Shown piece after piece: positions 18,948-39,773 of a DNA stretch of 41,371 bases. Each line of letters begins with the position of its first letter. The first letter of the stretch is position 1. Below the pieces are notes generated by a model. That model had not been told where the DNA came from, made no database searches, and saw only the letters and a list, made by a program, of their open reading frames with translations. The DNA lies in contig CAIOTT010000029.1 of assembly GCA_903861305.1 (NCBI GenBank), positions 1-41,371 on the forward strand, in the 5' to 3' direction. The position numbers and the translations under genes are program-made. This DNA is from Candidatus Omnitrophota bacterium (lineage in GTDB: Bacteria; Omnitrophota; Gorgyraeia; Zapsychrales; Fredricksoniimonadaceae).

Positions 18948-19529
18948 ATGACCATGAAAGATTTCCTTTCCACAACAGAAGCGTCAAAATATTGCCACGT
19001 CAACAGGCTCACGATCATTAACTGGGCCAATAAAGGCGCCATCCCCACCCATAAGACAGCTGGCGGCCATCGACGCATCAACAAGAATGACCTGCTGAAA
19101 TTCATGAAAGATCATGGTATCAAGACCAGTGGATCGGAATTAACATCACCCGAAACAGGTTTTCAGTGGTGCTGGGAACATCATAAGAACGATAAGTGGA
19201 AAAATCATAAGTGCCGCGGATGCCTGGTTTATCTTACAAATGCAAAGAAATGTTTCCTGCTGCGTGAGAAAGGCGGCCATAAAAGGATCTTTTGCAAGTC
19301 TAGCTGCGCCGATTGCTCCTATCAAAAGAATTATCATAACAATGTGCAGTCATGTTGGGAATTCCACCAGGAACGCGGCGCTTCCGGCCACGCCTGCAAC
19401 GCGTGTGTTGTGTTCCAGACAGGGATCAAGAAATGCTACATTCTCCGGGAAGAGACCGAGCACAAAAAGATATTTTGTAAATCAGACTGCAAAGACTGCG
19501 ATTACTACAAACAGGACCATTCCCTGTGA
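18948..19529 (+). CDS. MerR/excisionase-type HTH regulator with two tandem Cys-rich (CW...CxxC) repeats
   Basis: LSTTEASKYCHVNRLTIINWANKGAIPTHKTAGGHRRINKNDLLKFM HTH; repeats CWEHHKNDKWKNHKCRGCLVYLTNAKKCFLLREKGGHKRIFCKSSCADCSY and CWEFHQERGASGHACNACVVFQTGIKKCYILREETEHKKIFCKSDCKDCDY. Confidence 0.85.
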   Translation: MTMKDFLSTTEASKYCHVNRLTIINWANKGAIPTHKTAGGHRRINKNDLLKFMKDHGIKTSGSELTSPETGFQWCWEHHKNDKWKNHKCRGCLVYLTNAKKCFLLREKGGHKRIFCKSSCADCSYQKNYHNNVQSCWEFHQERGASGHACNACVVFQTGIKKCYILREETEHKKIFCKSDCKDCDYYKQDHSL

Positions 19530-19690: not shown

Positions 19691-19760
19691 GATCTCCTCC
19701 TTTTTTTATGAACAGACTTGTGGAACAACACGAACGCTACGTATTGCGAACTTCGTTAAA

Positions 19761-19779
19761 CCAGTGCCGCCGGCACCGG
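19761..19779. repeat. Copy 1 of 19-nt palindromic element CCAGTGCCGCCGGCACCGG
   Basis: Identical to 26384..26402; both copies lie immediately downstream of a trypsin-like protease gene. Confidence 0.8.
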
Positions 19780-19797
19780 CCATCAGGGTGGCGTCGC

Positions 19798-20709
19798 TCA
19801 GGTTAAAACATAAGGATTCCCGTTATTAAGCGCCACGGGTATGAACCCGTTCGCCGTTCCGACCTGGGTCTGTTTGCTGGAATTGATCAATGCCAGGGCA
19901 CTGTTGATCGGCGTGGCGTAGCCAATGCCCATGTAATTGTTTTGAGCCGATCCCGCTGAATTATTGATGCCAATGACTTCGCTCCTGATATTCACCAGCG
20001 GGCTGCCGCATGATCCAGGATAAATATTAATGTTGGTACGGAACCTGTTAGTGAACTGTTGGCCATTCACGGCATAAGAGAATTTGTTGTCAACGATCAT
20101 GCCGTTAGCCAATAAATTCCCTGTCCCGAAGGCATTACCCGCCGCAAAAACAATATCCCCCCGGTCGACCATATCAGAGTTCCCAAGGATCCCGGTGAAC
20201 TGAAAGGAGGTGTTATTCGTCACCTGCAGAAGGGCAAGGTCGTTGGCTGCGTCACAGCGGAACAGCGCCACGGGATAATCAGGTTGTTCCGACCCGTTAA
20301 TAGCAACGGAAAGTTCGCCGGTAGTTTGAACGATATGCGCGTTGGTCAGGATCAATTGATTCGAAATGATCACGCCGGAGCCTACCAGTTGAGGTTGCGG
20401 CTGCGCAGGGTCCGTACTGTAAATACTCACCGTGATCTTGTTCATGACATCCGCAATTTGATTATAGGTACTTTCCAGGGCGCCTGTATTGGTTCCGATC
20501 GGAACGCCACCCTGCAGCGGCATGGGCGAAGTGGACATGGCACCGCCCTGCCCCGGAACTCCGGCCAGCATCTGACCTCCCTGAGCCGGGATCAAGGGGT
20601 CTTTAGCTGCCATATTATTGCACTTCGCGGCAACACCAATAATACCGACGATCAGGAATATCCCTCCCAACCACAGCCAAAGGATCAATCTCGGATCTTT
20701 CTTGTCCAT
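19798..20709 (-). CDS. Membrane-anchored trypsin-like (DegP/MamE-MamO-like) protease domain with Cys at the nucleophile position
   Basis: N-terminal TM; TNAHIV (His), CDAANDLALLQV (Asp), IYPGSCGSPLVN in place of GNSGGPL. Confidence 0.8.
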   Translation of the reverse strand: MDKKDPRLILWLWLGGIFLIVGIIGVAAKCNNMAAKDPLIPAQGGQMLAGVPGQGGAMSTSPMPLQGGVPIGTNTGALESTYNQIADVMNKITVSIYSTDPAQPQPQLVGSGVIISNQLILTNAHIVQTTGELSVAINGSEQPDYPVALFRCDAANDLALLQVTNNTSFQFTGILGNSDMVDRGDIVFAAGNAFGTGNLLANGMIVDNKFSYAVNGQQFTNRFRTNINIYPGSCGSPLVNIRSEVIGINNSAGSAQNNYMGIGYATPINSALALINSSKQTQVGTANGFIPVALNNGNPYVLT

Positions 20710-20752: not shown

Positions 20753-22687
20753 TCACATTGTCCTGCGTAACAACTTGCGCCCTTTTGCCTCCCGGCACGT
20801 GACCCCTTTGGCATCGAACAATTCAAGGATCGGTACCGCTACATTACGCGTCAAGCCCGTCGCGGTGCGAAAATCCGCCAACTCAACGATGTTCTTTTCC
20901 TTAAATAAATCCAGCAGCACGGCAAGGAATTTCTGAACAGCCGTTGTCGCGAGGAGGTAGTGGTCTACGACAGTTACTGCCCCCTCTTCAGATAACAAGC
21001 GTGTCAAAAGCTGCATCTCCTTGTCCGTCGCGCTCAACTGAGCCTGGAGAACGGCCTGCGCCAGCGCCGCGTTCCCGGCCTGCGCCACAGACTTCATCAA
21101 CTGATCCTTCATTCCCTGAAGCTTAGCGCTGATATCCGGCGTAAAATCGCTCAGCCTGTAAACAGCCTTGTTGAGTAAGATGCGCAGGCTATTCGCGAAA
21201 AGCCCCTTTAACCCCTCCTGACACGCCTCCTCCAGTCCCAACGCGGCACACACCTGGGCACCCGGCATGCCCGCAGCTGTTTTATTCTCCTTGTGGAACC
21301 TGGCCAGGATTCCCGCTAGCTTTTCTTCCAGTTCAGGCTTGCGGTCATTGACGATCCAGTGAGCAGGCCCCAGCGGCGTCAGGACCCCTGATCTGACTTG
21401 AGCCGCCAGATGTGTTGTTATCTCTTCACCCGCATTCTGAACAAGCCACGGAAGATCCGTCGCGCTGATAACCACATAACAACCCGCGGACAATTCGCTC
21501 AGGAACGGATCATGGTCCGCGACGGCCTTCCGGGCTTTTTCCAGGCGATCGGACGTAAGGTACAACTTTTTGCGGCGAGGATCGATATGCCGCGTCAAAA
21601 CACTCCCGCCCCCAAGCGTGACGGACGGTGACAAGGAACGCAAAAGGAACCTGTCTCCGGCCGCAACAACCATGGGAAGGGCCGACTCGACCTGCATGAA
21701 CCCATTTTCACCCGGCGCCAGGGAGTTTTTCCCGATCAATAATCCCCACACCACGCGTGTGAATGTGCCGCAACAAAAACGCATTTCCTGGCGGCGCTTG
21801 ATAACGCACGTGTCATGCACGTTCTCAACAGATAAAACAGCAGAAGATGTTGCCTGATAAATTCCCGGCGCGGCAAGAGTCATCCCTCGCTGGACATCCG
21901 TTGCCTTGATATCCCTGATCGTGACAGCACAACAGGTGTGCGCCTGCGCGCTCTTCGACTCATAGCTGTATTTTTGAACGGACCGGCACGCGGTGCGCTG
22001 CGGACCGGGGAACAATTCCAGCCGCTCGCCAACGCAACACTGCCCGCTCGAGGGGATACCGGCAATGACCGTGCCGACCCCTGGCGGCGAGAATGCCCGC
22101 TCGACATGCATGCGAAAGGCTCGCGACGGGAGCACATCCTGCTGGACAAGATGCACCAGGCGCTCAATGGCCTGTTTTACCTCGGCCAGGCCATCCTTTG
22201 TCTTATTAGACATTAAAATGACCGGCGCTCCCGCAAACCCGTTGCTGTCCAGGAACGATACGACAGCCGCCCTTACTTCCTGTTGCCGCGCTGCCGTGAC
22301 AAGATCGATCTTGGTAATGACCGCCAGCACCCGAGGCGTGCCCAACAGGCTGACGATCTTCAAATGCTCAACAGTTTGAGGCATAATGCCATCATCAGCG
22401 GCAATGACCAGGACAAGGACATCGATCGACGACGCCCCGGCCACCATGTTCCTGATAAAATCTTCATGCCCGGGAACGTCGATGATACCGACCATGCGGG
22501 AGCTGGCAAGCTGCAGCGGCGCAAACCCCAGGTCAATGCTCATCCCCCGCTTTTTCTCCTCAGGCAAATGGTCCGTATCGCACCCCGTTAAAAGCTTGAC
22601 CAGAGCTGTTTTCCCATGATCAACATGCCCGGCTGTGCCGACCATGACAGGGACGATCTGAAGTTCCAATGCCGCCGCTATGCTCAT
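20753..22687 (-). CDS. selB: Selenocysteine-specific elongation factor SelB
   Basis: GTAGHVDHGKTALVKLLTGCDTDHLPEEKKRGMSIDLGFA, IDVPGHEDFIRNM, C-terminal winged-helix-like region; adjacent to selA and tRNA-Sec. Confidence 0.95.
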   Translation of the reverse strand: MSIAAALELQIVPVMVGTAGHVDHGKTALVKLLTGCDTDHLPEEKKRGMSIDLGFAPLQLASSRMVGIIDVPGHEDFIRNMVAGASSIDVLVLVIAADDGIMPQTVEHLKIVSLLGTPRVLAVITKIDLVTAARQQEVRAAVVSFLDSNGFAGAPVILMSNKTKDGLAEVKQAIERLVHLVQQDVLPSRAFRMHVERAFSPPGVGTVIAGIPSSGQCCVGERLELFPGPQRTACRSVQKYSYESKSAQAHTCCAVTIRDIKATDVQRGMTLAAPGIYQATSSAVLSVENVHDTCVIKRRQEMRFCCGTFTRVVWGLLIGKNSLAPGENGFMQVESALPMVVAAGDRFLLRSLSPSVTLGGGSVLTRHIDPRRKKLYLTSDRLEKARKAVADHDPFLSELSAGCYVVISATDLPWLVQNAGEEITTHLAAQVRSGVLTPLGPAHWIVNDRKPELEEKLAGILARFHKENKTAAGMPGAQVCAALGLEEACQEGLKGLFANSLRILLNKAVYRLSDFTPDISAKLQGMKDQLMKSVAQAGNAALAQAVLQAQLSATDKEMQLLTRLLSEEGAVTVVDHYLLATTAVQKFLAVLLDLFKEKNIVELADFRTATGLTRNVAVPILELFDAKGVTCREAKGRKLLRRTM

Positions 22688-24087
22688 GAAGACATATCTC
22701 GATGAAGGCGTTGGATGCCCTGCGCAATGAGCGCCTCTTCTCCCTTGAACAGCGTGCGCATGTCAAAATGCAGCGCATCATCGTTAACGCGGCAGAATAT
22801 GGACGGCATGCCCAGGCGCAGGCGTTCTGCGAGATCAGCGATGCTGATCTTTGCAGATAAAGGTTCATCCAGACGCACGCGTACCACGCGTGTCGGAATA
22901 CCCTCATCCGGCAAAGAGCCGCTGCCAACATAGGAAACATCATCCGTGACCGCAACGGCCAGGCCTTCAAGCCCGCAGATCGATTGAAGGATCACATGGG
23001 CGCGCGCTTCAAGTTCTCCGACCTGGATGCCCAGCATCTGGTAGAACGGCAATGCAGCCCTGTAAGTGCCATTCACAAAATGAACAAGCGTGGCTTCCAG
23101 CGCAGCGATCGTAAGTTTGTCGACCCGAAACATCCTGGCAAAAGGGTTCTTCCTGATCCGTTCAATGATCTCTTTCTTGCCGCAGACGATGCCCGCCTGC
23201 GGTCCGCAGATGAGCTTGTCAGCGCTAAAACAGACAACGTCAGTCCCGGCCGCGATCGAATCTGACACGAGGGGCTCATCAGCGACACCAAATCCTGAAA
23301 GCGGCACAAGGGCCCCGCTGCCAATATCATCGATCACAGGCAGGCCCGCCTTGCGCCCCAGTCCGCATAACGCGGTGATATCGGGGACACCCGTGAACCC
23401 GCGCACGCGATAATTTGAGGTATGCACATGGATCAAGGCGCCGGTTTGCTCGTTGATCGCCCGTTCGTAATCATGCAGATGTGTCCGGTTGGTCGTCCCC
23501 ACCTCCTGCATGATGACCGAACTCCTGGCCATCACATCCGGCAAACGGAATTCTCCGCCAATCTCGATCAATTGCCCGCGGCTAATGACCACCTGTTTAC
23601 CTTCCGCCAGAGTGTTAAGGACAAGCATGGTTGCGGCCGCATTGTTATTAACAACAGTCGCGGCTTCGCAGCCTGTCAATTCGATCAGCATCCGTTCGAT
23701 CTTTTCTTCACGCAATGAACGTTTTCCAGAAGCTAATCCGGTCTGCAAGATGGAATACTTACCCATCCCCGCCAAAGCATCCAGCGCTTCCTGGCACAGG
23801 GGTGAGCGGCCAAGCCCGGTATGGAGCAGAATCCCCGCCGCATTAATGGCATAGCGCCCCTCAGGGAAAACAAGCCGGGCAAGGCGGTCATGCAACGCGG
23901 CGCAGATGCCCCGCTTCTCAGGTAAAGCATCGGCCGCCCCGCTACGGACCTTTATGCGCAATCCATCCAACAAGGTGCGCAATTCCATCTTGACGAGAGG
24001 TGCGCCGAAGGTGGCGCACAAAGCCTGCATTTCCGGCCAGCCCAGCATTTCCGAGACCGACGGGATCAGTTTCAGGACTTCTGAAAA
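22684..24087 (-). CDS. selA: L-seryl-tRNA(Sec) selenium transferase SelA (N-terminus uncertain; open frame runs to 24204 through tRNA-Sec)
   Basis: GRSPLCQEALDAL, NNNAAATMLVLNTLAEGKQVVISRGQLIEIGGEFRLPDVM, VCFSADKLICGPQAGIVCGKKE. Confidence 0.93.
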   Translation of the reverse strand, partial: FSEVLKLIPSVSEMLGWPEMQALCATFGAPLVKMELRTLLDGLRIKVRSGAADALPEKRGICAALHDRLARLVFPEGRYAINAAGILLHTGLGRSPLCQEALDALAGMGKYSILQTGLASGKRSLREEKIERMLIELTGCEAATVVNNNAAATMLVLNTLAEGKQVVISRGQLIEIGGEFRLPDVMARSSVIMQEVGTTNRTHLHDYERAINEQTGALIHVHTSNYRVRGFTGVPDITALCGLGRKAGLPVIDDIGSGALVPLSGFGVADEPLVSDSIAAGTDVVCFSADKLICGPQAGIVCGKKEIIERIRKNPFARMFRVDKLTIAALEATLVHFVNGTYRAALPFYQMLGIQVGELEARAHVILQSICGLEGLAVAVTDDVSYVGSGSLPDEGIPTRVVRVRLDEPLSAKISIADLAERLRLGMPSIFCRVNDDALHFDMRTLFKGEEALIAQGIQRLHRDMSS

Positions 24088-24182
24088 TGGCGGAGGTGTA
24101 TGGGAATCGAACCCACCAGGGACTTTATCAGCCCCTCGACAGTTTTGAAGACTGCGAGCATCACCAGACACTGAACACCTCC
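24088..24182 (-). tRNA. selC: tRNA-Sec (anticodon TCA)
   Basis: GGAGGTGT/ACACCTCC 8-bp acceptor stem, GCAGTCTTCAAAACTG anticodon arm, long variable arm, GGTTCGATTCC T-loop, encoded GCCA 3' end. Confidence 0.95.
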
Positions 24183-24210: not shown

Positions 24211-24738
24211 TCACAGACCAACCGAATAATTCACGCCGTTGCGTTTATACCTGACCGAATACGCTCCCATTTCCGCGCCACGCCCGATGGCGCGCAGATT
24301 GGTCGTTCACTTGCCGTTTATTCGATTGATCAGGTCCCCTGGCTGTATGCCAGCCCGCTCGGCGGCAGAACCTGGCTCTACCGATACCACGGTGCCCCGG
24401 CCCTCCAGGACAACCCCCATGGCCAGCTTTATCGTGCCTGACTGCAATGCCACAGGCTGCAAGGGGATTACTGACGACGCCATGGGGCATCCTGGCGCTG
24501 CTGGATACATCAAACAATTATTTTGCGGCATCATTTGCGGCGCGTATCCGGGTTGCGCAGGGTACATGCCTGACGGATTACAACCCCGCCCTTGAAGGCA
24601 CATGGCGTTCGCCGAAGCATTGGCCTGCATCCCGGGACCTTTCCTGCTGAAAAAAAGCGCGAACAGGACCAGCATGCCCACAACCACAAAGATCGCTGTC
24701 GTTCGATAACGTTCCAAATGTTCAATAAATACGTGCAT
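24211..24738 (-). CDS. Putative Sec-containing, membrane-anchored PDZ protein (UGA at 24307-24309 read through)
   Basis: ORF track stops at 24307 after ...GDLINRINGK; in-frame continuation TTNLRAIGRGAEMGAYSVRYKRNGVNYSVGL completes the PDZ fold before the next stop (24211-24213). Confidence 0.7.
24274..24294 (-). promoter_or_regulatory. Candidate bacterial SECIS hairpin
   Basis: CGCGCC-AUCGGGCGU-GGCGCG, stem base 12 nt downstream of the in-frame UGA; apical loop contains GGG. Confidence 0.55.
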
Positions 24739-24747
24739 GACGCCTCC

Positions 24748-25215
24748 TCATCGTGTAAAAGACTTTGAAAACCCGGTCGGCCCGGTCGTTGGCATTAACT
24801 GATTGGTGCTATATTTAAAAAGCGCTTCCTGCACACTGTTGGCCAGCCCGGCGTAGACCTTGACCCCCCGGCGCGTCAAATGCTCGAACGGTTCCGGGCC
24901 CACATTCTTGCCGATGACAATGCCCGCCCTTTCCCTGACGATCAGGTGCGCGACATGCAACCCCACCTCATGCGTCCCGTTAACAAAATTGTTAACGACA
25001 TATTTGATCGTATTATGCTTCAGGTCATAAATAATGAAATACGGCGCCCTGGCGAAGACGGGAGAGACCGGCGACGCCAACGAAGCCTGGTCTGCCGGAA
25101 CGGCAACAATATACGGCGAGACATGCGGCTTGAACGAAAGCAGCATGACGGGGCTAAAGAGGATCACCACAATGGGGATCGCCAGGTGATACCAGCTTAC
25201 TTTTATGGTAGCCAT
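24748..25215 (-). CDS. Membrane-anchored NifX/NafY-like (dinitrogenase Fe-Mo cofactor family) domain protein
   Basis: N-terminal TM; APYFIIYDLKHNTIKYVVN...HLIVRERAGIVIGKNVGPEPFEHLTRRGVKVYAG. Confidence 0.75.
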   Translation of the reverse strand: MATIKVSWYHLAIPIVVILFSPVMLLSFKPHVSPYIVAVPADQASLASPVSPVFARAPYFIIYDLKHNTIKYVVNNFVNGTHEVGLHVAHLIVRERAGIVIGKNVGPEPFEHLTRRGVKVYAGLANSVQEALFKYSTNQLMPTTGPTGFSKSFTR

Positions 25216-26078
25216 CAGATATCCTTATCCCTGGTTTTACCCGCATGGCCCGAGCCTATCGGTATCGCGCTCACCAGTTTGACGTGTTTGCAATCCGTGC
25301 ATTCAAGGCACCTGATGCAATCTTTCATATTGGGATCCTCATGGACCTTCATCCCTTCAGGACATTTCTTCTGGCAGGCATTGCACCCGGTGCACCCGTC
25401 ACCTACCTCCAGCTTCATGATGCTGACCTTGTTAAAGAATGACCAAAAGAGTCCCATGGGGCATATGTACTGGCAGAATGGCCGCTTCGATACCACGAAA
25501 AGCCAAAGGACCACCGCCAGGATGACGAGTTTGAGGGCGAACATCCAGCCCACAGCGCCAGGTTCGATCGTCAACGTCCCCGTTGAGGGATTGATCGGGT
25601 TCCATAATACCCAGGGTATCCCCGCCACGACTGTTCCGACCGGACATAACTTCGAGAACCAGTGCTCTGTTGTCATAAAGGGCAGGATAATGATAAAAAC
25701 GATCAACAAGAACCATGGCAGCATCCCCCAGAATCGCGGGATCTCTATCTTGACCGTCTTGATCTTGTAGACGAACTCCTGAAAAAGCCCCACCGGGCAA
25801 ACCCACCCGCAGACCATACGCCCCACCAGAAGCCCGACGATCATGAGGTGCCCGACCAGAAAAAACGGGAACTGGTGTATCGCGGAATAATGCTGCATCA
25901 CTCCCAACGGGCAAGCGAACCCGGCGGTGGGACAGGAGTGACAATAGAGGAACGGCAGGCAAACACTTTTGAACAACCCCTGGTATATCTGGTTCGACGC
26001 GAACACATTCACGTAAATGTTCGTCATGATCACGCCAAACATCTGTGTCGCCCGTCGGAAAGGATGCAATAAATTCAT
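25215..26078 (-). CDS. NapH-like membrane polyferredoxin
   Basis: CHSCPTAGFACPLGVMQH, CGWVCPVGLFQE, CQYICPMG, two CxxCxxCxxxCP-type 4Fe-4S motifs near the C-terminus. Confidence 0.85.
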   Translation of the reverse strand: MNLLHPFRRATQMFGVIMTNIYVNVFASNQIYQGLFKSVCLPFLYCHSCPTAGFACPLGVMQHYSAIHQFPFFLVGHLMIVGLLVGRMVCGWVCPVGLFQEFVYKIKTVKIEIPRFWGMLPWFLLIVFIIILPFMTTEHWFSKLCPVGTVVAGIPWVLWNPINPSTGTLTIEPGAVGWMFALKLVILAVVLWLFVVSKRPFCQYICPMGLFWSFFNKVSIMKLEVGDGCTGCNACQKKCPEGMKVHEDPNMKDCIRCLECTDCKHVKLVSAIPIGSGHAGKTRDKDI

Positions 26079-26177
26079 GGCTGATTCTTTTTGTTATTAT
26101 CCTGCGCCTTCAAATTGTTTAGACCCTGATCAAAACACACGGTTTTGGCCGGATCACTGGATCCCGATGCAGGACAG

Positions 26178-26330
26178 TCAGAGCGTGGATGACGTCTGAT
26201 AATCTTCAAAAGGATTCCCCAGCCAGATACCAATGGCCGTAAGGATAACGGCAACAGCAAGGACCCCCCAGAAAACCCTTTTGTCATCGGCCCTGACGGC
26301 AAGTGGCAACGTTTTTGATTTCTCGACCAT
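26178..26330 (-). CDS. Small (50 aa) single-TM protein MVEKSKTLPLAVRADDKRVFWGVLAVAVILTAIGIWLGNPFEDYQTSSTL
   Basis: GGAGGG-N4-ATG RBS and TM segment. Preferred over the overlapping track ORF 26075..26302. Confidence 0.6.
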   Translation of the reverse strand: MVEKSKTLPLAVRADDKRVFWGVLAVAVILTAIGIWLGNPFEDYQTSSTL

Positions 26331-26383
26331 ATATCCCTCCGGAACTCTTTAAGATAAATATTTCCCGCATCACTTCATTTTTT

Positions 26384-26402
26384 CCAGTGCCGCCGGCACC
26401 GG
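26384..26402. repeat. Copy 2 of 19-nt palindromic element CCAGTGCCGCCGGCACCGG
   Basis: Identical to 19761..19779. Confidence 0.8.
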
Positions 26403-26419
26403 ATCACAGGTTAGACCGC

Positions 26420-27337
26420 TCAGGCGGCCGGCAAAAGAAAGCGGTCATTCGGAAAACCGACGGCCATTCCGCCGCCGGAACTTCCGTTCAGATCAGGGAT
26501 CCCGCTGTTCTTCAACAGGGCCAGCGCCCGGTTGATCGGTATCGCAAAACTGATGCCGGTGAATTTACCGTCGGGATTGTATATGGCTGTATTGATGCCG
26601 ATGATCTCGCCGTTGATATTTGCCAGCGGCCCGCCGCTTGAACCCGGATACGTATAAGACTCTGTGCGGATCATGTTGTTATAGCTCCGGCCTCCGGTCG
26701 AAAATGACTGATCGCGGTCCGCCACCATGCCGGTCGTAAATACGTTGCCGGACCCGAACGCGTTGCCCATGGCAAAGACCATGTCGCCGGGATTAACGGT
26801 ATCTGAATTCCCCAGATCCGCCGACGGTAGGACAGTCTTTGTACTCACCTTGAGTAAAGCCAGGTCATTCGCCGGATCAGCCATGATAATGGCGGCGGGA
26901 TAGGTAGCTTCCGTATTCGCTTGTGTGTATACTGTTACCTGGATTTCAACAGCGTTACCTACCACGTGATAATTCGTCAGCATGTACTGATCACCAATAA
27001 TAACGCCGGACCCATGCACCTGTTCCGGTGCTCCGTTGATGATCATGCCCCCGGTGATCCTCGCGCATACGTGATTCATTCCGTGCGCGATATTGTTGTA
27101 CGTACGTTCCAGGGCCGATGCTGATAACGGCGGCGGCGCATCGGGCGGTGCCGGCGGTTTATAACCGATCCAGTGCTCTGCCATTTCCACCTGGAACATC
27201 CCGTAACCCATATTAAAATTCGCGATCACGGCCACAGGGATAATTATCGCGGTGAGAAAAATGACCCACGTCGTCAAGGCCACATGGCTGTCGATCGTCA
27301 ACCAGGTTGTTTTCTGCTGATGGACAGAGTGTGTCAT
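26420..27337 (-). CDS. Membrane-anchored trypsin-like (DegP/MamE-like) serine protease, no PDZ
   Basis: N-terminal TM; TNYHVV, ADPANDLALLKV, YPGSSGGPLANINGEIIGINTAI: intact His/Asp/Ser triad motifs. Confidence 0.85.
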   Translation of the reverse strand: MTHSVHQQKTTWLTIDSHVALTTWVIFLTAIIIPVAVIANFNMGYGMFQVEMAEHWIGYKPPAPPDAPPPLSASALERTYNNIAHGMNHVCARITGGMIINGAPEQVHGSGVIIGDQYMLTNYHVVGNAVEIQVTVYTQANTEATYPAAIIMADPANDLALLKVSTKTVLPSADLGNSDTVNPGDMVFAMGNAFGSGNVFTTGMVADRDQSFSTGGRSYNNMIRTESYTYPGSSGGPLANINGEIIGINTAIYNPDGKFTGISFAIPINRALALLKNSGIPDLNGSSGGGMAVGFPNDRFLLPAA

Positions 27338-28155
27338 TTACCTACCCCCAATAAACAGTGGTCCAGACCGGCATTGACTTTAGATTTTTGTCCTGCCGCG
27401 ATCAGGGCCGCACCAAAAGCCGCGGTCATCTGCGGGTCCCGGGCGATCTCAACAGGGCACTTCAGCTCCTTCTCCAGGGCCAGGCTCATCCCCGGAATAA
27501 GCGCCACGCCTCCGGCAAACACAACAGGCCCTTCGATCTTCCCGCCGACCATTGACAAGATACGTTTCGCGATGGAATTCTGGACACCGGCAACAATATT
27601 GGCCGGCGAGGCCTCTGAGGCCAGGAGCCCCACGATCTCGGTCTCCGCGAATACAACACACATGCTGCTGATGACCGCCGGATGTTCCGCCATCCGGGTG
27701 ATCTGACCAAGGTCTTGTAATTTCATTTCCAGACGATCAGCGACGATCTCGAGGAACCTCCCGGTCCCTGCCGCGCAACGGTCGTTCATTGCGAAATCAT
27801 GCACGATCCCCTGCTGGTCAAGACGGATCACTTTGCTGTCTTCACCTCCGATATCAATGACCATGCGCACATGGGGCACCTGGTGCCTGACACCATACGC
27901 CTGGCAAGTGATCTCCGTCACTGTCGTATCCGCCCAATCCAAAGCATTCCTGCCATAACCTGTCGCCACAACCCTGGCTATATCATTCCTTTGAAGGCGG
28001 GCCTCACGCAGGACAGACTGGAACAATTCCTCTGCCAGGACCGCCTGGCGTACGCCCTGCGCGCAGAGCCCTGACGCCACAACACGCCTGTCAGCATCAT
28101 GGATCAGGACAACCTTGATCGTGCGGGAACCCGCATCAACTCCGGCGTAGAACAT
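27334..28155 (-). CDS. 2-hydroxyacyl-CoA dehydratase activator-type ATPase (HgdC/BcrAD family)
   Basis: GVDAGSRTIKVVLI, IDIGGEDSKVIRLD, FAMNDRCAAGTGRFLE, FAGGVALIPGM. Confidence 0.93.
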   Translation of the reverse strand: MFYAGVDAGSRTIKVVLIHDADRRVVASGLCAQGVRQAVLAEELFQSVLREARLQRNDIARVVATGYGRNALDWADTTVTEITCQAYGVRHQVPHVRMVIDIGGEDSKVIRLDQQGIVHDFAMNDRCAAGTGRFLEIVADRLEMKLQDLGQITRMAEHPAVISSMCVVFAETEIVGLLASEASPANIVAGVQNSIAKRILSMVGGKIEGPVVFAGGVALIPGMSLALEKELKCPVEIARDPQMTAAFGAALIAAGQKSKVNAGLDHCLLGVGK

Positions 28156-28158
28156 AGG

Positions 28159-29544
28159 TTACTTCCTCTTTCTTTGCCCCTTGGCGATCTCTATCAAAGC
28201 GCTTAATCTCGTCCGCAAGGATGCCTGGAACGTATCGCTCACCGGCGGCACCTCGATCTCGACAACAGGAATATCAAAAATTGAGCGTATCGTTTCTTTA
28301 ATGACCACGCCCTCCAACGCACAATGGCTGGCTCCAGGGATCCTGGAAATAATGACCGCCTCTGACCCGAATCTTTTAATATCAGCGCAGATCCGCCGTG
28401 CCCTGTCCTGGGCCGCCCCTGCCATTGGATCCGCCAATGCCATGCGGGCCAGCGCCTCACGCGGCGGGATATGCGTCGGTATTTGATCAAGCGCATGGGT
28501 GAAAAGGTATTCCGTGCCGCAGATCCTTCCGCCGCATTCCTCGAGCATATTCATGACCCGCAGGTCCGCCACCGGATTGATCCAGAAAACACGGACACTG
28601 TCAGGGCCAAGGTAGCCAACACCCGCGGCAACCCGCTGTTGCACCAGTTCAAGCAATCCTGAAAGCACCACCAACACTTCATCCCTGTCTGAGCAAAAAT
28701 GGATCGCCATCATCTCCGCCACCAGCAATTCAAGCGCAGGTAAAGGCGCAATATCTGCTGTAAATATCGTGAGGCGCAATTCAGCCAAACACGCGCGGAC
28801 CTTGTTGGCTTCAGAAATGCCATGGACGATCATGTCATCTGTCACAGACGCGCCGACCGTATCGGCCATGACCCTTATGATCCGCGTCATTTCATCTTTA
28901 ACAAAATCTATCTGATCCTTCGCAGCGCAGGCCCCGCCAGGCAGCTCAATGCCCGTCTCATCATGTCCCAATGCCCGCCGGTGCGGCAATTCCCACCAGA
29001 GGATCGGATTCCCCAGGCCCTCAACCCGTTGCGCGATCGCGGAAAAATCATCGCACGTAGCGCCAACACTGCAGATCAGCATATCCGGTGCCGGGAAATG
29101 ATCTCCGGTGACAAACGCCGCCAGCATGGCGCGCACCGGACAGAATGTTCCGTCAACACCAAGCTGGTCCGCAACCTCCAAAAGCCGGTCATTTTCATCC
29201 ATGAGGCATGGTATCCACCAGGCCCCGTCAGGATAGAACGCCACAAGACCCGGGTGCGCGTAGACCATGACCGGCAGGGTGCCAAGGTCTTTCATGGTAC
29301 CGATCAACTTCTTTCCCGCTGATCTTGCCTCACGCAAACGCTCTTCTTCTGTTAATAAAAAGTTCCACAAATTCATGGCAACGGCTGAATTATCGAACTT
29401 CAAACGTTCGATGCCCTTGTTCCCGTCCTTGACATGACGGCTCAAACGTCCCCCATACCGCGGCGCCTGCCCGCCATAAGAAAGCCACTGGCCATACGCC
29501 GCGTCGCACTCCTCCAGCGTTATCTGCTGCAGACGGTCCATCAA
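28159..29544 (-). CDS. 2-hydroxyacyl-CoA dehydratase-family (HgdA/HgdB-like) protein
   Basis: HgdB-like fold motifs: MLICSVGATCDDFSAI, GSEAVIISRIPGASHCALEGVVIKETIRSIFDIPVVEIEVPP. Confidence 0.75.
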   Translation of the reverse strand: MMDRLQQITLEECDAAYGQWLSYGGQAPRYGGRLSRHVKDGNKGIERLKFDNSAVAMNLWNFLLTEEERLREARSAGKKLIGTMKDLGTLPVMVYAHPGLVAFYPDGAWWIPCLMDENDRLLEVADQLGVDGTFCPVRAMLAAFVTGDHFPAPDMLICSVGATCDDFSAIAQRVEGLGNPILWWELPHRRALGHDETGIELPGGACAAKDQIDFVKDEMTRIIRVMADTVGASVTDDMIVHGISEANKVRACLAELRLTIFTADIAPLPALELLVAEMMAIHFCSDRDEVLVVLSGLLELVQQRVAAGVGYLGPDSVRVFWINPVADLRVMNMLEECGGRICGTEYLFTHALDQIPTHIPPREALARMALADPMAGAAQDRARRICADIKRFGSEAVIISRIPGASHCALEGVVIKETIRSIFDIPVVEIEVPPVSDTFQASLRTRLSALIEIAKGQRKRK

Positions 29545-30560
29545 CGCAGCCCTTCCATAAAAGCCTGGATACGGTTCCTGGTTCGTTCACCGATCTGCTC
29601 ACCGTCGATCTCTATATCCAGCAAGGGAACTGACAGAGACTCGCGGAAGCGCTGGGCCTCGGCATGCCACTTGTCGCACCACATGTAACGGATAAGAACA
29701 ACTCCCCGCACGTGATGATCCCTGACCCTGTCCTTCATCCACATAAAGATCCTGTTATTAGGACGTTCCCCGATGTCAGGGAACGAACTGAAATAAGACT
29801 CTGCCAAAACGTGCATCGGTTCATCTTTCAGGCGCCTGAGGTCAAACCGTGCCGGTAAGACGCGTTCCCCAGTTTCGGTCGCATTGAACGCAACAGACGC
29901 CCCGTATTCAGAAAAGACATCAAAGAGATCAAAATGATTCCCGGTCAAAGGGCTGCCGATGAACCCGACAGGAATGCATTTTTCACCAGGGACATATTGT
30001 TCGCGGCCATCCGTGACATTCCCGGTCTCGGCAAAACAGGCAAGCTTCTGCGCAAAATCTTTTCCTGACACCATCCCCTGTTGCGCCATCAGCTTTTTGC
30101 GTTTTTCGTCATAAGTACGCATTGTGGCAGCCAGTTCATCGGGTTGCGGCTTAACACCTCCCAGAGAAACAAGGAATTCACCGAGCCGTTCGAGTTCCCT
30201 AAGAAACAGCCTGTTAACGCCTGATGTTTCCCAAGACGCAGGAACATGCATCAGAAAACATGGGATATGTGAATACAAACTGATCAGATCCGCACCACGA
30301 CGCATCTGATCACACGTCGTAGTGAGAATGATCGCCTGGACCCGGGTATCACTCGATGCCTGATTGATAAAACCCCGCATATACGGGCAAACACCAGCCT
30401 CTACATTGACCGGAGCACTTACGAACAAACTGCGATCATAACTAAGGCATGCCATCCGGTTGGGCTCAAGCCCGTGAGCCGCGATCCATTCCGCAGGGAT
30501 ATACGGGCTGCTGTAGATCACCTTTTTCCGGGATCGTTCTGTTGACGGGGCACTAGTCAT
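29541..30560 (-). CDS. 2-hydroxyacyl-CoA dehydratase-family (HgdB-like) protein
   Basis: VIYSSPYIPAEWIAAHGLEPNRM, CPYMRGFIN, TTTCDQMRRGADL, GVVLIRYMWCDKWHAEAQRFRESLSVPLLDIEID. Confidence 0.85.
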   Translation of the reverse strand: MTSAPSTERSRKKVIYSSPYIPAEWIAAHGLEPNRMACLSYDRSLFVSAPVNVEAGVCPYMRGFINQASSDTRVQAIILTTTCDQMRRGADLISLYSHIPCFLMHVPASWETSGVNRLFLRELERLGEFLVSLGGVKPQPDELAATMRTYDEKRKKLMAQQGMVSGKDFAQKLACFAETGNVTDGREQYVPGEKCIPVGFIGSPLTGNHFDLFDVFSEYGASVAFNATETGERVLPARFDLRRLKDEPMHVLAESYFSSFPDIGERPNNRIFMWMKDRVRDHHVRGVVLIRYMWCDKWHAEAQRFRESLSVPLLDIEIDGEQIGERTRNRIQAFMEGLR

Positions 30561-31827
30561 GGCAACAGCCTTTCAAGGAACTTTCCTGTGATGATCCTCT
30601 GGCACTGACTGTTTCAAAAAGAGACTGGACCCGCAGCGCGATACGCGCCGAATCTGACGGAGCGTAATCAGTTTCGATCCGCAGGTACGGGATATTCATC
30701 TCATCTTCCACCAGGCGTTTGACACATGCTGATTCAACATCATATGTAATGCAGGTCCGCCAAACGAGCTCAATAACGCACTGGGCCTGGTATTCACGGG
30801 ACAACTGCAATAAAAGTTCCATGCGTTTGGTATTCGGGGTCATGACCGAGCATGGCAAATGAAAATACTTGGCGGCGATGGCATGAATCATGTCCGGCGC
30901 ATCTTCACTGATATCTTCAAGAACAGGCTTGATCCCCGAGCAATTTTCCTGACACACGACAACCCCGCCATGACCCTCAATGATATCCATGACGCGTTCC
31001 GCACCATGCGGCAGTGGAACACCCGTTAACAAAACACGCACACCCTGTCCTGCCGAAGTATCTTGCACGCGCGTCGGAAGTGTTTTGAGGGCATTTTCAT
31101 ATTGCAGCTGATCCTTGGGCATACACGCCACCAGGCTTTTCATATCGAGCAGATCCCGTCCCGTTAAAGGCGGGACCTCGCATTTCATCAGTTCTGCCAG
31201 GCCCCTTTTGAGCTTTCGCTCACGATTCATAAGGCGAATGGCGTTCCTTAATTTTTCATCCGTTATCACAATTGAAAATCGTTTCTCAAGCGCGATCTTC
31301 AACTTCATGAGCTCTCTGACCCAATGCGCGAAAGCATCCGGGTCATCCGGCTTTTGCGGCAACTCCAGGACATGCATGGGGTATTGTTGGCCCAGCAGCT
31401 CATACATCTTTTTCTTCCCGTCGCAGGTAGTCTCCGCCACGATAAGGTCAGCCATTTCAAGGAAAGGGTTCGACTTCTCAAGGCTGTACCCGAAGGTCGA
31501 CTTGATCAGAGAGCAAAGATTGGACGGCAGGACCCGTTCCGCCGGCTCCACCATCTCACCCGATCCCCCGCAAAGGCAGACCGGAATCCCACCCGCAGCC
31601 ATGATGAGCTCCCGCGGCGTGTATTCGCACATGATACCCACAACCCTGGCCCCATGGCCCTTATGAAGCTTGATATAATCCAAACTGTTGCTGACCTGCG
31701 CTTGAAAATATGCCGCCGGAGAATCACCCCGGACCACACTCCCGTGCGAAGCACACGCCATTTGGGGAGGGCGACAAGGATCAATATTCTTTATATCCGG
31801 AGTTTTTCCTCCGCAACATCCTGCCAT
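30553..31827 (-). CDS. Double-cubane-cluster-protein-like 2-hydroxyacyl-CoA dehydratase family protein
   Basis: VVGIMCEYTPRELIMAAGGIPVCLCGG, VAETTCDGKKKMYELL, CQENCSGIKP, CVIELVWRTCITYDVESACVKRLVEDEMNIPYLRIETDY. Confidence 0.85.
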   Translation of the reverse strand: MAGCCGGKTPDIKNIDPCRPPQMACASHGSVVRGDSPAAYFQAQVSNSLDYIKLHKGHGARVVGIMCEYTPRELIMAAGGIPVCLCGGSGEMVEPAERVLPSNLCSLIKSTFGYSLEKSNPFLEMADLIVAETTCDGKKKMYELLGQQYPMHVLELPQKPDDPDAFAHWVRELMKLKIALEKRFSIVITDEKLRNAIRLMNRERKLKRGLAELMKCEVPPLTGRDLLDMKSLVACMPKDQLQYENALKTLPTRVQDTSAGQGVRVLLTGVPLPHGAERVMDIIEGHGGVVVCQENCSGIKPVLEDISEDAPDMIHAIAAKYFHLPCSVMTPNTKRMELLLQLSREYQAQCVIELVWRTCITYDVESACVKRLVEDEMNIPYLRIETDYAPSDSARIALRVQSLFETVSARGSSQESSLKGCCHD

Positions 31828-31839
31828 GTCAACCCTCTG

Positions 31840-32643
31840 TTATTTCTTCACCGCGACGAACCGGCCCTGGACCAGTTTTCCTTCGTGGGCAAGTTTCTGC
31901 ATGAACATCATCTCACAGGCCAAAGACTGCATCAGGGCCATATCAAAGCCAATGATCTTGAGTGCGTCATAGGTCAACTGTTTCTTGAGCATATCCAGGT
32001 AAAGATCCACGTGAGAGGCAAATTGCGCTGTATCCTCGGCAACGATGACCCTGCACCCATTCTTCTCCAGCAACACCTTGTAATCCTGGACATTCAATAT
32101 GTTGGGGAATTTCATGAAAGTTAAAAGCCTCTTACCTTCGTCAGGCGTCAGGGGAATTTCACCCTCAACCCAGTCCGTAAAGGCAAGAATACCGCCGGCC
32201 TTGACGATCCGTACTGCCTCCCGAATAAGCGAAGCCTTATCCTCGACATAACACCAGGCATCTTCACCCCAGACAAAATCAGCTGCTCCGGCGATTAACC
32301 CGGTATCGCCAACATCTCGATGAACGAACCGGATCTTGTCGGACGAGCCTTCCTGCCGGCACCTGTCCTGGCCGCGCAGGATGACTTTCTCCGTCGCGTC
32401 AACCCCTGTCATTCCCACAACGTTGCAAAAACGCACCAAAAACCGCATTCCCGCGCCGGAACAACAGCACAAGTCAACACCCTTCAACCCTTTCAGGTCA
32501 CCTGCTTTCGCGGACAGCGCCAGGGAAGAAGCCAGCCCGCCGATATGGATCTGTTCTCCCATGATCAATTCCCAAAGATCGCCCTCCGGCCCGCTGTAAA
32601 CCGCCTGCACATTCTCCAATCCAATGCCGTTGATCGATCTCAT
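31840..32643 (-). CDS. SAM-dependent methyltransferase (sarcosine/dimethylglycine methyltransferase-like)
   Basis: VDLCCCSGAGMRFLVRF...GVDATE, DFVWGEDAWCYVEDKASLIREAVRIVKAGGILAFTDW. Confidence 0.75.
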   Translation of the reverse strand: MRSINGIGLENVQAVYSGPEGDLWELIMGEQIHIGGLASSLALSAKAGDLKGLKGVDLCCCSGAGMRFLVRFCNVVGMTGVDATEKVILRGQDRCRQEGSSDKIRFVHRDVGDTGLIAGAADFVWGEDAWCYVEDKASLIREAVRIVKAGGILAFTDWVEGEIPLTPDEGKRLLTFMKFPNILNVQDYKVLLEKNGCRVIVAEDTAQFASHVDLYLDMLKKQLTYDALKIIGFDMALMQSLACEMMFMQKLAHEGKLVQGRFVAVKK

Positions 32644-34226
32644 CAGCTTCTTCCTTCGAGTTTTCGTGAATCAAGATATTTTCCGTACGCCATTTTCACG
32701 GGAGCGCCCCCAATGAGCACGGCACACCAGGCCGCTTCATCAAGCTCTTCTTTGGCAATGCCCATAGCCAGGGACTTTTCATAATGCATATGGATGCAGG
32801 GCTCACAGCGTTGAAGGACCACCAGGGAAAATATGATCATTTCCTTCGTACGTTTATCAACCTTGCCTGTGGCGGTTACTGATGCCAGCAATTCCCCAAA
32901 CGCCTTCATGGACCCAGGGACCGTGCTTTCCACGCCCTCAATAACGTCAGCTTCACTGCCGGAAACACAGGAGCAACAACCAGTCTCATGCCCCCCGGCG
33001 CCTTGATATTTCTTTAATTGCATATTTCCCCCGCTTTTTGTTATAACCAGCTCAATGGCAACTTCTTGCTTCGGCAGGACCTGACCTATAGTAAACGCGC
33101 GGACACCGCGCGCTGCCAGCTCATCGAGAAGCATTTGATGGCGCTCTTGAGGGACCGAGATCATCAAGCCGCCCGATGTTTCAGCGCTGAACCCGAGGTA
33201 TTTATATTCCTCGGCAACACCTTCGCAGGCAACAAGGCTATCCCCGACAAATTCAGAGTTCCTCTCATTAGCGCCAGGGATAACACCGTCGCGTAACAGA
33301 TCCAGCACACCCTCGAACACCGGCAAAGCATGCGCGTATATCCGGGCAGAAACGCCGGATTGACGCAGCATCCGCAGCAAATGCCCGAACAATCCAAACC
33401 CCGTGATATCGGTGCAGGCGGAAACACTGACCTTTACCATCGCGTCAGACGCGTCCTTGTTGAGCTCCATCATCGAAGATATTGCAGCAGCCAGACCTTC
33501 CTGAGGCGCGCGGTTTGTCTGGCCTGCAAAGGTCAGCACCCCGACACCCAGCGGTTTTGTGAGGACCAGGACGTCACCGGCGCTAGCTGTCTCCAACGCA
33601 ATGACCTTGCCGGCATCAATGGTCCCTGTTATGGCAAAACCCAGCTTCACTTCCTTATCCTTGATGCTATGCCCGCCCAAAAGTGAGCACCCGGCCTCAC
33701 TCAGGACCTCCATCGCTCCCTTTAACATGAGATACATGATCTCCCTGTCATGCGTTTCCGATGGGAACGCCAGGATGCTCAGCGCCGTCCGCGGGACAGC
33801 ACCCATCGCATAAATGTCCGACAGGCAGTTGGCGGCACATATCTTCCCAAATACATAAGGGTCATCGACACAAGGCGTGAATACGTCAACCGTCTGCACA
33901 AGCGTTGTTGTCGGGTTCAACCTGTAGACACCGGCGTCATCCGCGGCCGCCAGTCCCGATATCACCGCGGGGTCATCGACCTTTGGCAAACGAACGAGCA
34001 ACCCCTCGAGATCTGCCGCGCCGATCTTGGACGCGCAGCCCGCGCTGGAACTAAGCGCCGTTAACTTGATCTGATCTGAAGCAATGGCAGGGGGACGTTC
34101 ACCGGCGCAAGGGCAAAGATCCTCTTTGATAAAGATCTCGCATGGGCATTGCCGTTTAACGTCACAGATGCAATACCCAAGTTTTCGGGATCGCATCATG
34201 ACCTGAGCGCGCTTGTATGAACTCAC
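32643..34226 (-). CDS. selD: Selenide, water dikinase fused to N-terminal Cys-rich and C-terminal AhpD-like segments
   Basis: SSAGCASKI active-site region, VQTVDVFTPCVDDPYVFGKICAANCLSDIYAMGAVPRTAL, LLGGHSIKDKEVKLGFAITGTI; C-terminal RCEPCIHMHYEKSLAMGIAKEELDEA. Confidence 0.92.
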   Translation of the reverse strand: MSSYKRAQVMMRSRKLGYCICDVKRQCPCEIFIKEDLCPCAGERPPAIASDQIKLTALSSSAGCASKIGAADLEGLLVRLPKVDDPAVISGLAAADDAGVYRLNPTTTLVQTVDVFTPCVDDPYVFGKICAANCLSDIYAMGAVPRTALSILAFPSETHDREIMYLMLKGAMEVLSEAGCSLLGGHSIKDKEVKLGFAITGTIDAGKVIALETASAGDVLVLTKPLGVGVLTFAGQTNRAPQEGLAAAISSMMELNKDASDAMVKVSVSACTDITGFGLFGHLLRMLRQSGVSARIYAHALPVFEGVLDLLRDGVIPGANERNSEFVGDSLVACEGVAEEYKYLGFSAETSGGLMISVPQERHQMLLDELAARGVRAFTIGQVLPKQEVAIELVITKSGGNMQLKKYQGAGGHETGCCSCVSGSEADVIEGVESTVPGSMKAFGELLASVTATGKVDKRTKEMIIFSLVVLQRCEPCIHMHYEKSLAMGIAKEELDEAAWCAVLIGGAPVKMAYGKYLDSRKLEGRS

Positions 34227-34474: not shown

Positions 34475-35122
34475 ATGACCCATACACCAGCTGCTGTGCG
34501 ATCAAGGCGCCCTGGCAATAAGCACATAATAACGACCTTTGATCAATCAACAGCTACGTGCCATATCTTTACTTTCAAGGAAGGCCTGCTGTCTTTGGTT
34601 GCCCACGATCTCAAGCTGCAAGTTTTAAAGTTTAAAATATCGGTAGAAGGCAACCCAAGCACGTTACCCGTGTGGAAAGGCGTTCGCGCCACGTTTGACC
34701 CTGCCAGTATCACGACCGTCTGCGCCATGCACGATGGCCAGGAAAAACAGAACAGGTTGAACAAACAGGACTGCCTTGATATCGAAAGGAACATGGCCAA
34801 CGACGTATTGCGGACAAAAGAGCACCCCCGCATTGACTTCTGTTCCAAGGTTGTTTCGGGGAGCCATGACAACTTCGTTGTCAAAGGCCATTTGACCATC
34901 TGCGGCACAACACGTGCGATATCCGTTCCTGTTGAACGGGAGGATAATGCCCATGTCGTAAAAGTTACCATGGATCAACGTGATTTTGGGATAAGGCCAT
35001 TCACTGCCCTGATGGGAACAATGAAGATCAAGCCCGACATACTGATCAGGATCGAGCTGCCTGTTATATCAGTCTCACCACGGCCCAAGCCATCGCACCT
35101 GGGTGCGGCCAAATCCCGTTGA
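34475..35122 (+). CDS. YceI-like family protein
   Basis: LLSLVAHDLKLQVLKFKISVEG, VLRTKEHPRIDFCSKVV, VKGHLTICGTTRAISVPV, DFGIRPFTALMGTMKIKPDILIRIELP. Confidence 0.75.
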   Translation: MTHTPAAVRSRRPGNKHIITTFDQSTATCHIFTFKEGLLSLVAHDLKLQVLKFKISVEGNPSTLPVWKGVRATFDPASITTVCAMHDGQEKQNRLNKQDCLDIERNMANDVLRTKEHPRIDFCSKVVSGSHDNFVVKGHLTICGTTRAISVPVEREDNAHVVKVTMDQRDFGIRPFTALMGTMKIKPDILIRIELPVISVSPRPKPSHLGAAKSR

Positions 35123-36232
35123 AGCGTTAGCTGATGCCGCCAAACGTAAACGCCCTGACTGGAAATCTGACACAGCGCCACTTACAGTTGCGGCATTCTC
35201 GAAATAATATATCCTCACGCCATCGCCTCTCAGCGCCGTGAACATCTTTGGCCCAACCTTCCCCGCCAGGACAGTGCCGATGTTATGGGCATTGACCATA
35301 GCACCCAGGATGCCGCTTTCTTCAACGTTGTAATAACGGCTCTTGTTCATTTTCATCGTTGTTGTACCGTTCTTAAGGTCAACGATACAAAAATATGGCG
35401 CACGGCCGAGAAGGCTGGAAACGGGGCTGTCCAATGTCCCTCCTTCTGAAGGAATAAGAACAACATCCCTGCGGCTGAACGTGCACAGCACCGTCCACGA
35501 AAAGAATACAATAATGCACACTGTCAGCGCACCCAATGCCAACACCATCTGCTTTTTCAATGCCGCCACCTTGGCCTTTTCCTTCTCAAAATATTCAGCA
35601 AAGATCTGAAGCGCCCCATGGATCTGGAAACCACCGATAAAAAGCGCGCCGATCGGGTCAAAATATACAAGCCCCAGGACCGCGAGAAGTATCCCGAAAA
35701 AACCAAAACAGGCCGCGAACAAATTTGTTTTGTTCTGGATCATGAATATGAAGACATTGGCGTTACTTCTATCGCGTTTATGATTGCATAAAGAGATCAG
35801 GTACAAATGCGCATTGACCAGAATCGATACCTTGGCAACGATAAGAGCAAAAAGACCAGGCCGGGAAGGTATCCTGGAGATGATAATGGCAAAATTGTCC
35901 GAACATATCCATACACCTGAAACGAACATGATGATCCCGATGAGAATGCTCTGCATCGGCACAGACACGGTCTTCCCGCGCGCACCAAAATAATTGATCC
36001 CGAATGCAGCGCAATCGGAGAACGAATGGACCGCCTCGGCCACCAGCACCTTACTTCCGGTTATAACCCCGACGACCCCCTTGATCATCGTCATTGCCAT
36101 ATGATAGATCAAGGACCCTGAAATGATCTTTACCTGGCAGTCCAGACAGTCGGCCTCTTTTGTCCGATTGCAAAGGATATAACGCTCGGAGTTACTCATT
36201 TTTCTTGGCCCGCGATGTGTTGGTCGTGTCAT
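35075..36232 (-). CDS. CDF-family (MamB-like N-terminus) transmembrane domain fused to a NifX/NafY-like domain
   Basis: CLDCQVKIISGSLIYHMAMTMIKGVVGVITGSKVLVAEAVHSFSD CDF start; extra TM; APYFCIVDLKNGTTTMKMN...VLAGKVGPKMFTALRGDGVRIYYFE. Confidence 0.75.
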   Translation of the reverse strand: MTRPTHRGPRKMSNSERYILCNRTKEADCLDCQVKIISGSLIYHMAMTMIKGVVGVITGSKVLVAEAVHSFSDCAAFGINYFGARGKTVSVPMQSILIGIIMFVSGVWICSDNFAIIISRIPSRPGLFALIVAKVSILVNAHLYLISLCNHKRDRSNANVFIFMIQNKTNLFAACFGFFGILLAVLGLVYFDPIGALFIGGFQIHGALQIFAEYFEKEKAKVAALKKQMVLALGALTVCIIVFFSWTVLCTFSRRDVVLIPSEGGTLDSPVSSLLGRAPYFCIVDLKNGTTTMKMNKSRYYNVEESGILGAMVNAHNIGTVLAGKVGPKMFTALRGDGVRIYYFENAATVSGAVSDFQSGRLRLAASANASTGFGRTQVRWLGPW

Positions 36233-37185: not shown

Positions 37186-37200
37186 CGCTATCTCCCTGAT

Positions 37201-38984: not shown

Positions 38985-39000
38985 TGCCCTTCTCCGGAAA

Positions 39001-39747: not shown

Positions 39748-39773
39748 GCGCAGATCCTTTCATTATTTAAAAC

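Follow-up and report, generated by a model that had tools for sequence, protein, structure and literature searches.

A minus-strand open reading frame (24738-24307) in the window analyzed here (the whole stretch of DNA, 41,371 nucleotides in length) terminates at ..GDLINRINGK-UGA (24309-24307), and genes for the insertion of selenocysteine (Sec, the 21st amino acid and a rare one) follow downstream. This raises the question of whether the UGA is a true stop or is read as Sec, as the first-pass annotation of this DNA had proposed. The features bearing on this question, in which the Sec assignment should be taken as a prediction, are listed below.

24214..24738, minus strand: predicted protein of 175 aa with Sec144 (hereafter Sec-PDZ); read-through translation, PDZ_6 (6e-10), orthologues, AF2 fold
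24307..24309, minus strand: in-frame UGA, putatively read as Sec144; kept in five of five genomes
24274..24294, minus strand: putative SECIS hairpin of Sec-PDZ, CGCGCCAU-CGGGC-GUGGCGCG; folds in five of five genomes, MFE -12.8
24088..24182, minus strand: tRNA-Sec gene; ARAGORN, Rfam RF01852 (77.4 bits)
22684..24072, minus strand: selA, with homology from about 24072; PF03841 (2.7e-124), TIGR00474 (3.5e-144 at 22714-24072)
20753..22687, minus strand: selB with SelB winged-helix domain; PF00009, PF09107
32643..34226, minus strand: SelD with a fused AhpD domain, for selenophosphate supply; TIGR00476 (1.8e-100, above cut-off), CMD domain

An in-frame UGA within a PDZ domain

The annotated frame had been described as ending mid-PDZ, and this is correct, as the Pfam PDZ_6 model scores 39.1 bits (cut-off 27), with the match essentially confined to the first half of the domain. 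Reading through the UGA gives TTNLRAIGRGAEMGAYSVRYKRNGVNYSVGL, followed by UGA (24213-24211), TCT and TAA; the coordinates first given for the 31 added residues, for their UGA stop and for a UAA two codons on are right, and the tRNA-Sec gene placed 28 nt after the stop is recovered by both ARAGORN and Rfam RF01852. The protein consists of an N-terminal TM segment, a Pro-rich linker and the PDZ domain. Modeling of the full-length PDZ, as had been suggested, yielded a complete predicted PDZ fold (AF2), in which a helix (148-155) and two strands (161-166, 169-174) are encoded 3' of the UGA and U144 sits immediately ahead of the helix. The model thus bears out the proposal that the post-UGA residues form the missing half of the domain. 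The closest solved folds are the PDZ domains of DegQ, DegP and HtrA, and the overall TM-scores are low because of the disordered linker.

With an X placed at the UGA, orthologues were searched for in the window's relatives and 386 phylum genomes. Four were found in independent MAGs, with identities of 66-79%: one in the same genus (G002, 79%), two in the same family (G015 and G029, 72 and 76%) and one in another family of the class (G221, 66%). When considering the results below, it should be noted that the comparison comprises five genomes of one phylum, two of which are 64-68% complete (the window MAG is at 68%). Each orthologue contains exactly one in-frame TGA at the identical column (five of five, including the window), the protein is conserved on both flanks of this codon, the downstream frame stops at nearly the same place in all five, and tRNA-Sec lies 100-320 nt downstream of the gene in all four relatives. 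Past the hairpin (codons 13-31, 19 codons), pN/pS is 0.254, compared with 0.242 for the 48 codons upstream of the UGA. The post-UGA part of Sec-PDZ evolves as protein, and this evidence is independent of the hairpin. Within the SECIS codons (36 nt after the UGA), pS is 0.33, as compared to 0.68 further on; such a lowering of synonymous change in these codons only is expected if they are constrained as RNA and as protein at once.

Masking the UGA as X had been put forward as a check for either a conserved TGA or a Cys homologue. The former was found in the four orthologues, while no Cys homologue was. Of 52 distant PDZ domains, none has Cys at the Sec column, where varied residues, among them P, K, R, S and A, are seen instead, and there is therefore no Cys/Sec pair. 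Varied residues lacking a Cys/Sec pattern had been named in the first-pass annotation as speaking against Sec; the distant PDZ domains do vary in this manner, whereas the orthologues never do.

The hairpin takes the form GCGCCAU-CGGGN-NUGGCGC or a wobble variant thereof, with seven of seven pairs kept in all five genomes, and its loop begins 20 nt after the UGA. Published bSECIS criteria describe a loop of 3-9 nt with a G in the first two loop positions, a stem of 4-16 bp, a spacing of 16-37 nt and an MFE of at most -7.5 (PMC13188914). The Sec-PDZ hairpin lies within these ranges, with a 5-nt CGGGN loop, a stem of 7-8 bp, a spacing of 20 nt and an MFE of -10.2 to -12.8, and a search of the five genomes with the Sec-PDZ SECIS model returned a single strong match per genome. 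No two-sided compensatory change was found among the five sequences because the stem is nearly invariant, and the hairpin, taken alone, is thus less telling than its conservation would imply.

The window carries the full Sec machinery (tRNA-Sec, SelA, SelB and SelD). Among 83 genomes of the order, tRNA-Sec is found at 75-77 bits in four, which are exactly those bearing Sec-PDZ, and the remaining genomes score no higher than 48.8 bits with the same model. We read the 48.8-bit level as tRNA-Ser, and genuine tRNA-Sec as limited to the four Sec-PDZ genomes of the 83. At the phylum level, selA is above cut-off in 7 of 386 genomes, four of which carry the conserved gene group around Sec-PDZ described below (the cassette). 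G200, G255 and G306 (L077-L079) have selA but not the cassette, with L079 also having tRNA-Sec, and the Sec traits of these genomes are separate from the cassette. FdhA is the commonest bacterial selenoprotein. As PF00384 (molybdopterin oxidoreductase) is absent from all five carriers, with the same search being positive in 11 genomes as a control, FdhA is missing from the assembled part of these genomes (64-68% complete in two cases). This apparent absence and the perfect co-occurrence of tRNA-Sec would point to a reason for the lineage to keep or acquire the Sec trait.

Two details of the machinery can be added. Directly behind tRNA-Sec (24040-24090, minus strand), no ATG, GTG or TTG precedes the conserved N-terminus LIPSVSE of SelA, and it seems that translation must begin at CTG or another rare start codon, or inside the tRNA region. 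The C-terminal AhpD/carboxymuconolactone decarboxylase domain of SelD-AhpD (32643-34226, minus strand) contains a CxxC motif (RCEPCIHMH) and has a methyltransferase adjoining it; known ArsM-AhpD selenoproteins contain similar parts, whereas the protein here has Cys.

If the UGA were a true stop, a truncated PDZ would be the product and the conserved sequence downstream would be an RNA element only. While the 36 nt that follow the UGA are indeed conserved beyond the needs of the protein, the low pN/pS of the 19 codons past the hairpin (0.25), the stop shared at nearly the same place in five of five genomes, the half of the fold that the post-UGA codons are predicted to supply and the co-occurrence of tRNA-Sec with the gene make this reading very improbable. 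A sequencing error, a nonsense mutation or genome-wide UGA reassignment has a negligible probability. The window does come from a single MAG that is 68% complete, but the identical UGA is found in five MAGs from separate assemblies, which rules out an assembly error or pseudogene, and as UGA terminates 21 of the 34 genes in the window, it is an ordinary stop there and not reassigned. Conservation of Sec-PDZ thus renders nonsense mutation, sequencing error and a truncated PDZ very unlikely. The best-supported reading, which the sequence comparisons make highly probable, is that Sec-PDZ is a selenoprotein; the initial proposal has gained the UGA and the hairpin in five of five genomes, selection on the post-UGA protein and exact co-occurrence with tRNA-Sec across 83 genomes.

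Further UGA codons with the same hairpin loop

Although its proposal of a selenoprotein is supported, the first-pass annotation overlooked three further genes nearby with a UGA and a SECIS-like hairpin, one of which, encoding 58 aa, is wholly unannotated. Their features are the following.

26157..26330, minus strand: unannotated small predicted selenoprotein of 58 aa with one TM segment, ..LGNPFEDYQTSSTL-U-LSC-IGIQ; UGA at the same column in five of five genomes
26178..26180, minus strand: in-frame UGA, putatively Sec51 of the 58-aa protein; stop is UGA 26154-26156
26131..26147, minus strand: putative SECIS hairpin of the 58-aa protein, CAAAAC-CGUGU-GUUUUG; compensatory changes at four of six pairs
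26420..27337, minus strand: p1, MamE/HtrA-like trypsin-fold protein; Trypsin_2 (4e-30), MamE model (1.8e-41, below cut-off)
26420-26422, minus strand: p1 UGA, probably Sec, then A-V and stop UAA 26411-26413; tails in five genomes
26383..26403, minus strand: p1 SECIS-like hairpin, UCCGGUGC-CGGCG-GCACUGGA; loop 24 nt after UGA
19798..20709, minus strand: p2, MamE/HtrA-like trypsin-fold protein; Trypsin_2 (1.9e-21)
19798-19800, minus strand: p2 UGA, probably Sec, then ATPP and stop UGA 19783-19785; U-ATPP*/U-ATAPV* in four genomes
19759..19781, minus strand: p2 SECIS-like hairpin; loop CGGCG 25 nt after UGA

All four UGA codons (those of Sec-PDZ, the 58-aa gene, p1 and p2) share the hairpin loop signature CG[G/U]NN. 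When this was formulated as a rule (a UGA, a spacing of 16-37 nt, at least 6 bp, a CG[G/U]NN loop and an open frame upstream), the only matches in the window were p1, the 58-aa gene and Sec-PDZ, with p2 requiring one more G-U pair. Such a hairpin follows two of the 21 UGA-ended genes in the window, compared with 0.13% of UGAs in simulated DNA, and 125 kb of sequence from elsewhere in these genomes gave no match with an open upstream frame. The rule may be used as a finder for further genes of this kind.

The 58-aa gene, located between p1 and the gene for a NapH-like protein, emerged when the cassettes were translated in six frames, with UGA taken as U, and compared with one another; it encodes MVEKSKTLPLAVRADDKRVFWGVLAVAVILTAIGIWLGNPFEDYQTSSTL-U-LSCIGIQ-stop. 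Automatic UGA-on-UGA alignment produced many antisense and out-of-frame ghosts, and only sense-frame sites with a hairpin were retained. The UGA, the UxxC motif, the ATG start and a purine-rich ribosome-binding site are common to all five genomes, in which the flanks of the UGA are nearly identical; six of the seven codons after the UGA vary, and every change is synonymous. The hairpin lies 3' of the stop of the gene, with a CGUGU or CGGGU loop 36 nt from the UGA, and its extended fold reaches -10.8 kcal/mol in the window and -10.8 to -25.8 kcal/mol overall. An alternative hairpin across the stop codon was dropped, as it was strong in only some of the genomes. A profile search of the 386 phylum genomes detected the protein only in cassette carriers, always with TGA and in no case as a Cys homologue. 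That the 58-aa protein is a selenoprotein can be proposed with almost as much confidence as for Sec-PDZ.

For p1 and p2, nine of nine sequences present a UGA, never UAA or UAG, and then a hairpin 23-25 nt away, of the form CCGGUGC-CG[G/U]NN-GCACUGG or a covarying form thereof, in which four of seven pairs are compensated (the p2 hairpin of G221 has one G-A mismatch). A second stop follows 2-5 codons past the UGA, and the tails in between vary in length and sequence (A-V, ATPI, GAPI, AAPI and AGG in p1; ATPP, ATPP, ATAPV and ATAPV in p2). In matched pairs of tails (ATPP, ATAPV and.PI), which are 2-5 codons long, codon differences are synonymous only.

It is conceivable that only Sec-PDZ and the 58-aa protein are selenoproteins, the UGAs of p1 and p2 being plain stops and their hairpins regulatory or structural RNA; a SelB-binding site that controls an operon is known from the E. 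coli selAB leader. The short and variable tails would fit this explanation, as would a trypsin fold that is complete without them, but the fixed distance from UGA to loop, the exclusive use of UGA in nine of nine sequences and the purely synonymous differences between matched tails argue against it, and we consider it rather unlikely. We take p1 and p2 to be likely selenoproteins, on sequence patterns that make a weaker case than that of the 58-aa protein.

In p2 (19798-20709, minus strand; L062 12111-12995; L065 10182-11060), Cys replaces the catalytic Ser (PGSCGSPL, PGSCGGPL and PGVCGGPL), while its paralogue p1 retains Ser (PGSSGGPL). With Cys at this position, p2 may itself be thiol based.

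The cassette and the magnetosome-type genes around it

The remaining genes of the cassette are as follows.

24748..25215, minus strand: Nitro_FeMo-Co (NifX-like) domain protein with N-terminal TM segment; PF02579 (6e-17)
25215..26078, minus strand: NapH-like membrane 4Fe-4S protein; Fer4_5, NapH family below cut-off
27334..31827, minus strand: double-cubane-cluster reductase, two related HGD-D proteins and ATPase activator; NF040772 above cut-off, PF06050, PF01869, synteny

The gene order kept in the relatives, as far as their contigs extend, is double-cubane reductase/HGD-D, ATPase activator, p1 and the 58-aa gene, after which come the NapH-like and NifX-like genes, Sec-PDZ, tRNA-Sec, selA, selB and p2. 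Close orthologues of the NifX-like protein (58-73%) are found only in cassette genomes, and Sec-PDZ, the 58-aa protein, p1 and p2 each look as if they start with a membrane anchor. A GTDB contig scan gave four loci matching the orthologues, namely MBPbin6, Cal1bin1, nHGRbin18 and nW3bin14. MBPbin6 and Cal1bin1 are magnetotactic, with magnetosome gene clusters (PMC5955933), and nW3_bin14 has been counted among magnetotactic genomes (PMC9160268), such that three of these four relatives belong to the magnetotactic Omnitrophota published so far. In the window's own genome, relatives of mamE, P, M, B, A, Q and N, several of them below curated cut-offs, are found on another contig (C45), and the bacterium is probably magnetotactic, judging by gene content. 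Within the window, a magnetochrome (PF18509) protein and a PDZ protein that is not a Sec candidate are encoded at 39001-40220 (minus strand), and CDF transporters at 35075-39110, all of these being genes of magnetosome type.

Following established SelB/SECIS biology, SelD-AhpD, SelA, tRNA-Sec and SelB would make and deliver Sec within a self-contained cassette, with SelB recognizing CG[G/U]NN-loop hairpins 20-36 nt after the UGA of four genes, i.e., Sec-PDZ, the 58-aa UxxC protein and the two MamE-like proteins with a short Sec tail. Sec insertion would complete the PDZ domain of Sec-PDZ, the second half of which would otherwise not be made. As for function, the NapH-like FeS protein, the NifX-like and MamE-like proteins and the double-cubane reductase may form a redox module of the envelope or magnetosome membrane, from which electrons would reach the selenol/thiol groups of the 58-aa protein and Sec-PDZ, possibly for control of the iron redox state or of the thiol state of magnetosome proteins. 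This proposal, drawn from the neighboring genes, is a tentative one.

The cassette may also be real but serve selenium or other anaerobic redox metabolism, standing near magnetosome genes without a role in the magnetosome. We regard this as possible, if somewhat doubtful: NF040772, the methyltransferase and SelD-AhpD as neighbors speak for it, as does the location of the core mam cluster on a different contig, whereas the cassette itself contains two MamE-like proteins, a NapH-like protein and PDZ proteins, the magnetochrome domain and the CDF transporters share its window, apparent actin-like genes (identified by eye) adjoin it in G221, and the literature lists three of the four named relatives as magnetotactic genomes. 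The position of the cassette next to magnetosome-type genes suggests that selenium has a part in building or running the magnetic organelle of these uncultured bacteria. An improbable extension of a magnetosome role is that selenium gates assembly in a magnetosome island that has expanded the genetic code for its own use, through one cassette holding four selenoproteins together with their Sec machinery. Sec insertion would then both complete the PDZ and add hydrophobic-ended tails (U-ATPI, U-AAPI and U-ATAPV) to the MamE-like proteins, and tails of this sort could be C-termini of the kind bound by PDZ domains. As tails and PDZ would both need Sec, the complex might form only when selenium is available.

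Likeness to known systems

Two described selenoproteins combine Sec with a PDZ domain. In the Trx7/PDZ domain selenoprotein (NF041199), Sec is part of the CxxU of a thioredoxin domain (PMC13188914). Sec-PDZ shares with it the presence of PDZ and Sec in one bacterial protein, yet has neither a thioredoxin domain nor CxxU, with Sec lying inside the PDZ fold, and it is not a member of that family (20.6 bits compared to a cut-off of 300, with only the first half of the PDZ matched). GOS data yielded a putative selenoprotein in which a MucD-type serine protease is fused to PDZ, with Sec in CxxC/U (PMC9402790). The cassette likewise links trypsin-type proteins to PDZ and Sec, although here the genes are separate rather than fused, and Sec would be placed in the PDZ half and at the protease C-termini. 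The selenoprotein reviews and studies searched reported no case of Sec within the PDZ itself.

MamE and MamP offer a second likeness, being membrane-anchored proteins of magnetosome islands with HtrA-like trypsin and PDZ domains. The MamE NCBIfam model scores 142.5 bits for p1 and 73.8 bits for p2, both below the cut-off of 800, and Sec-PDZ, unlike MamP, lacks a CxxCH magnetochrome. We know of no Sec in any Mam protein and of no selenoproteins previously linked to magnetosomes, and none were found in the literature searched, the coverage of which was partial. To our knowledge, the cassette does not occur in magnetotactic bacteria of other phyla, and it is therefore not required for magnetosomes in general.

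Decoding resembles that of E. coli fdhF, sharing SelA, SelB, SelD, tRNA-Sec and a UGA followed by a hairpin with a G[G/U] loop; the setting differs, as no formate dehydrogenase-type protein was detected in the carriers and the machinery is embedded among unusual selenoprotein genes. The predicted proteins would constitute selenoprotein families not described before, in a genomic context that is also new, with decoding in the usual bacterial manner. Among the bacterial selenoproteins known so far, most have a Cys counterpart and a Trx-like or metalloenzyme fold. Here, Sec would lie within a PDZ fold and close to the C-termini of proteases, and no Cys counterpart was found. All four genes are either cut short or overlooked by standard annotation, which leaves the proteins invisible in public records.

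Lastly, an excisionase/MerR-like HTH protein with a Cys-rich tail (CWEHH..CRGC..C) is encoded on the strand opposite to the cassette (18948-19529, plus strand) and lies beside the cassette in three genomes (L062 11278-11859 and L065 11370-11954), and may serve the cassette as a redox or metal sensor. A PAS protein (36229-37185, minus strand) has a similar Cys-rich C-terminal module (SCWDVLNC..CPAF..KCWEV) and is perhaps a second regulator.
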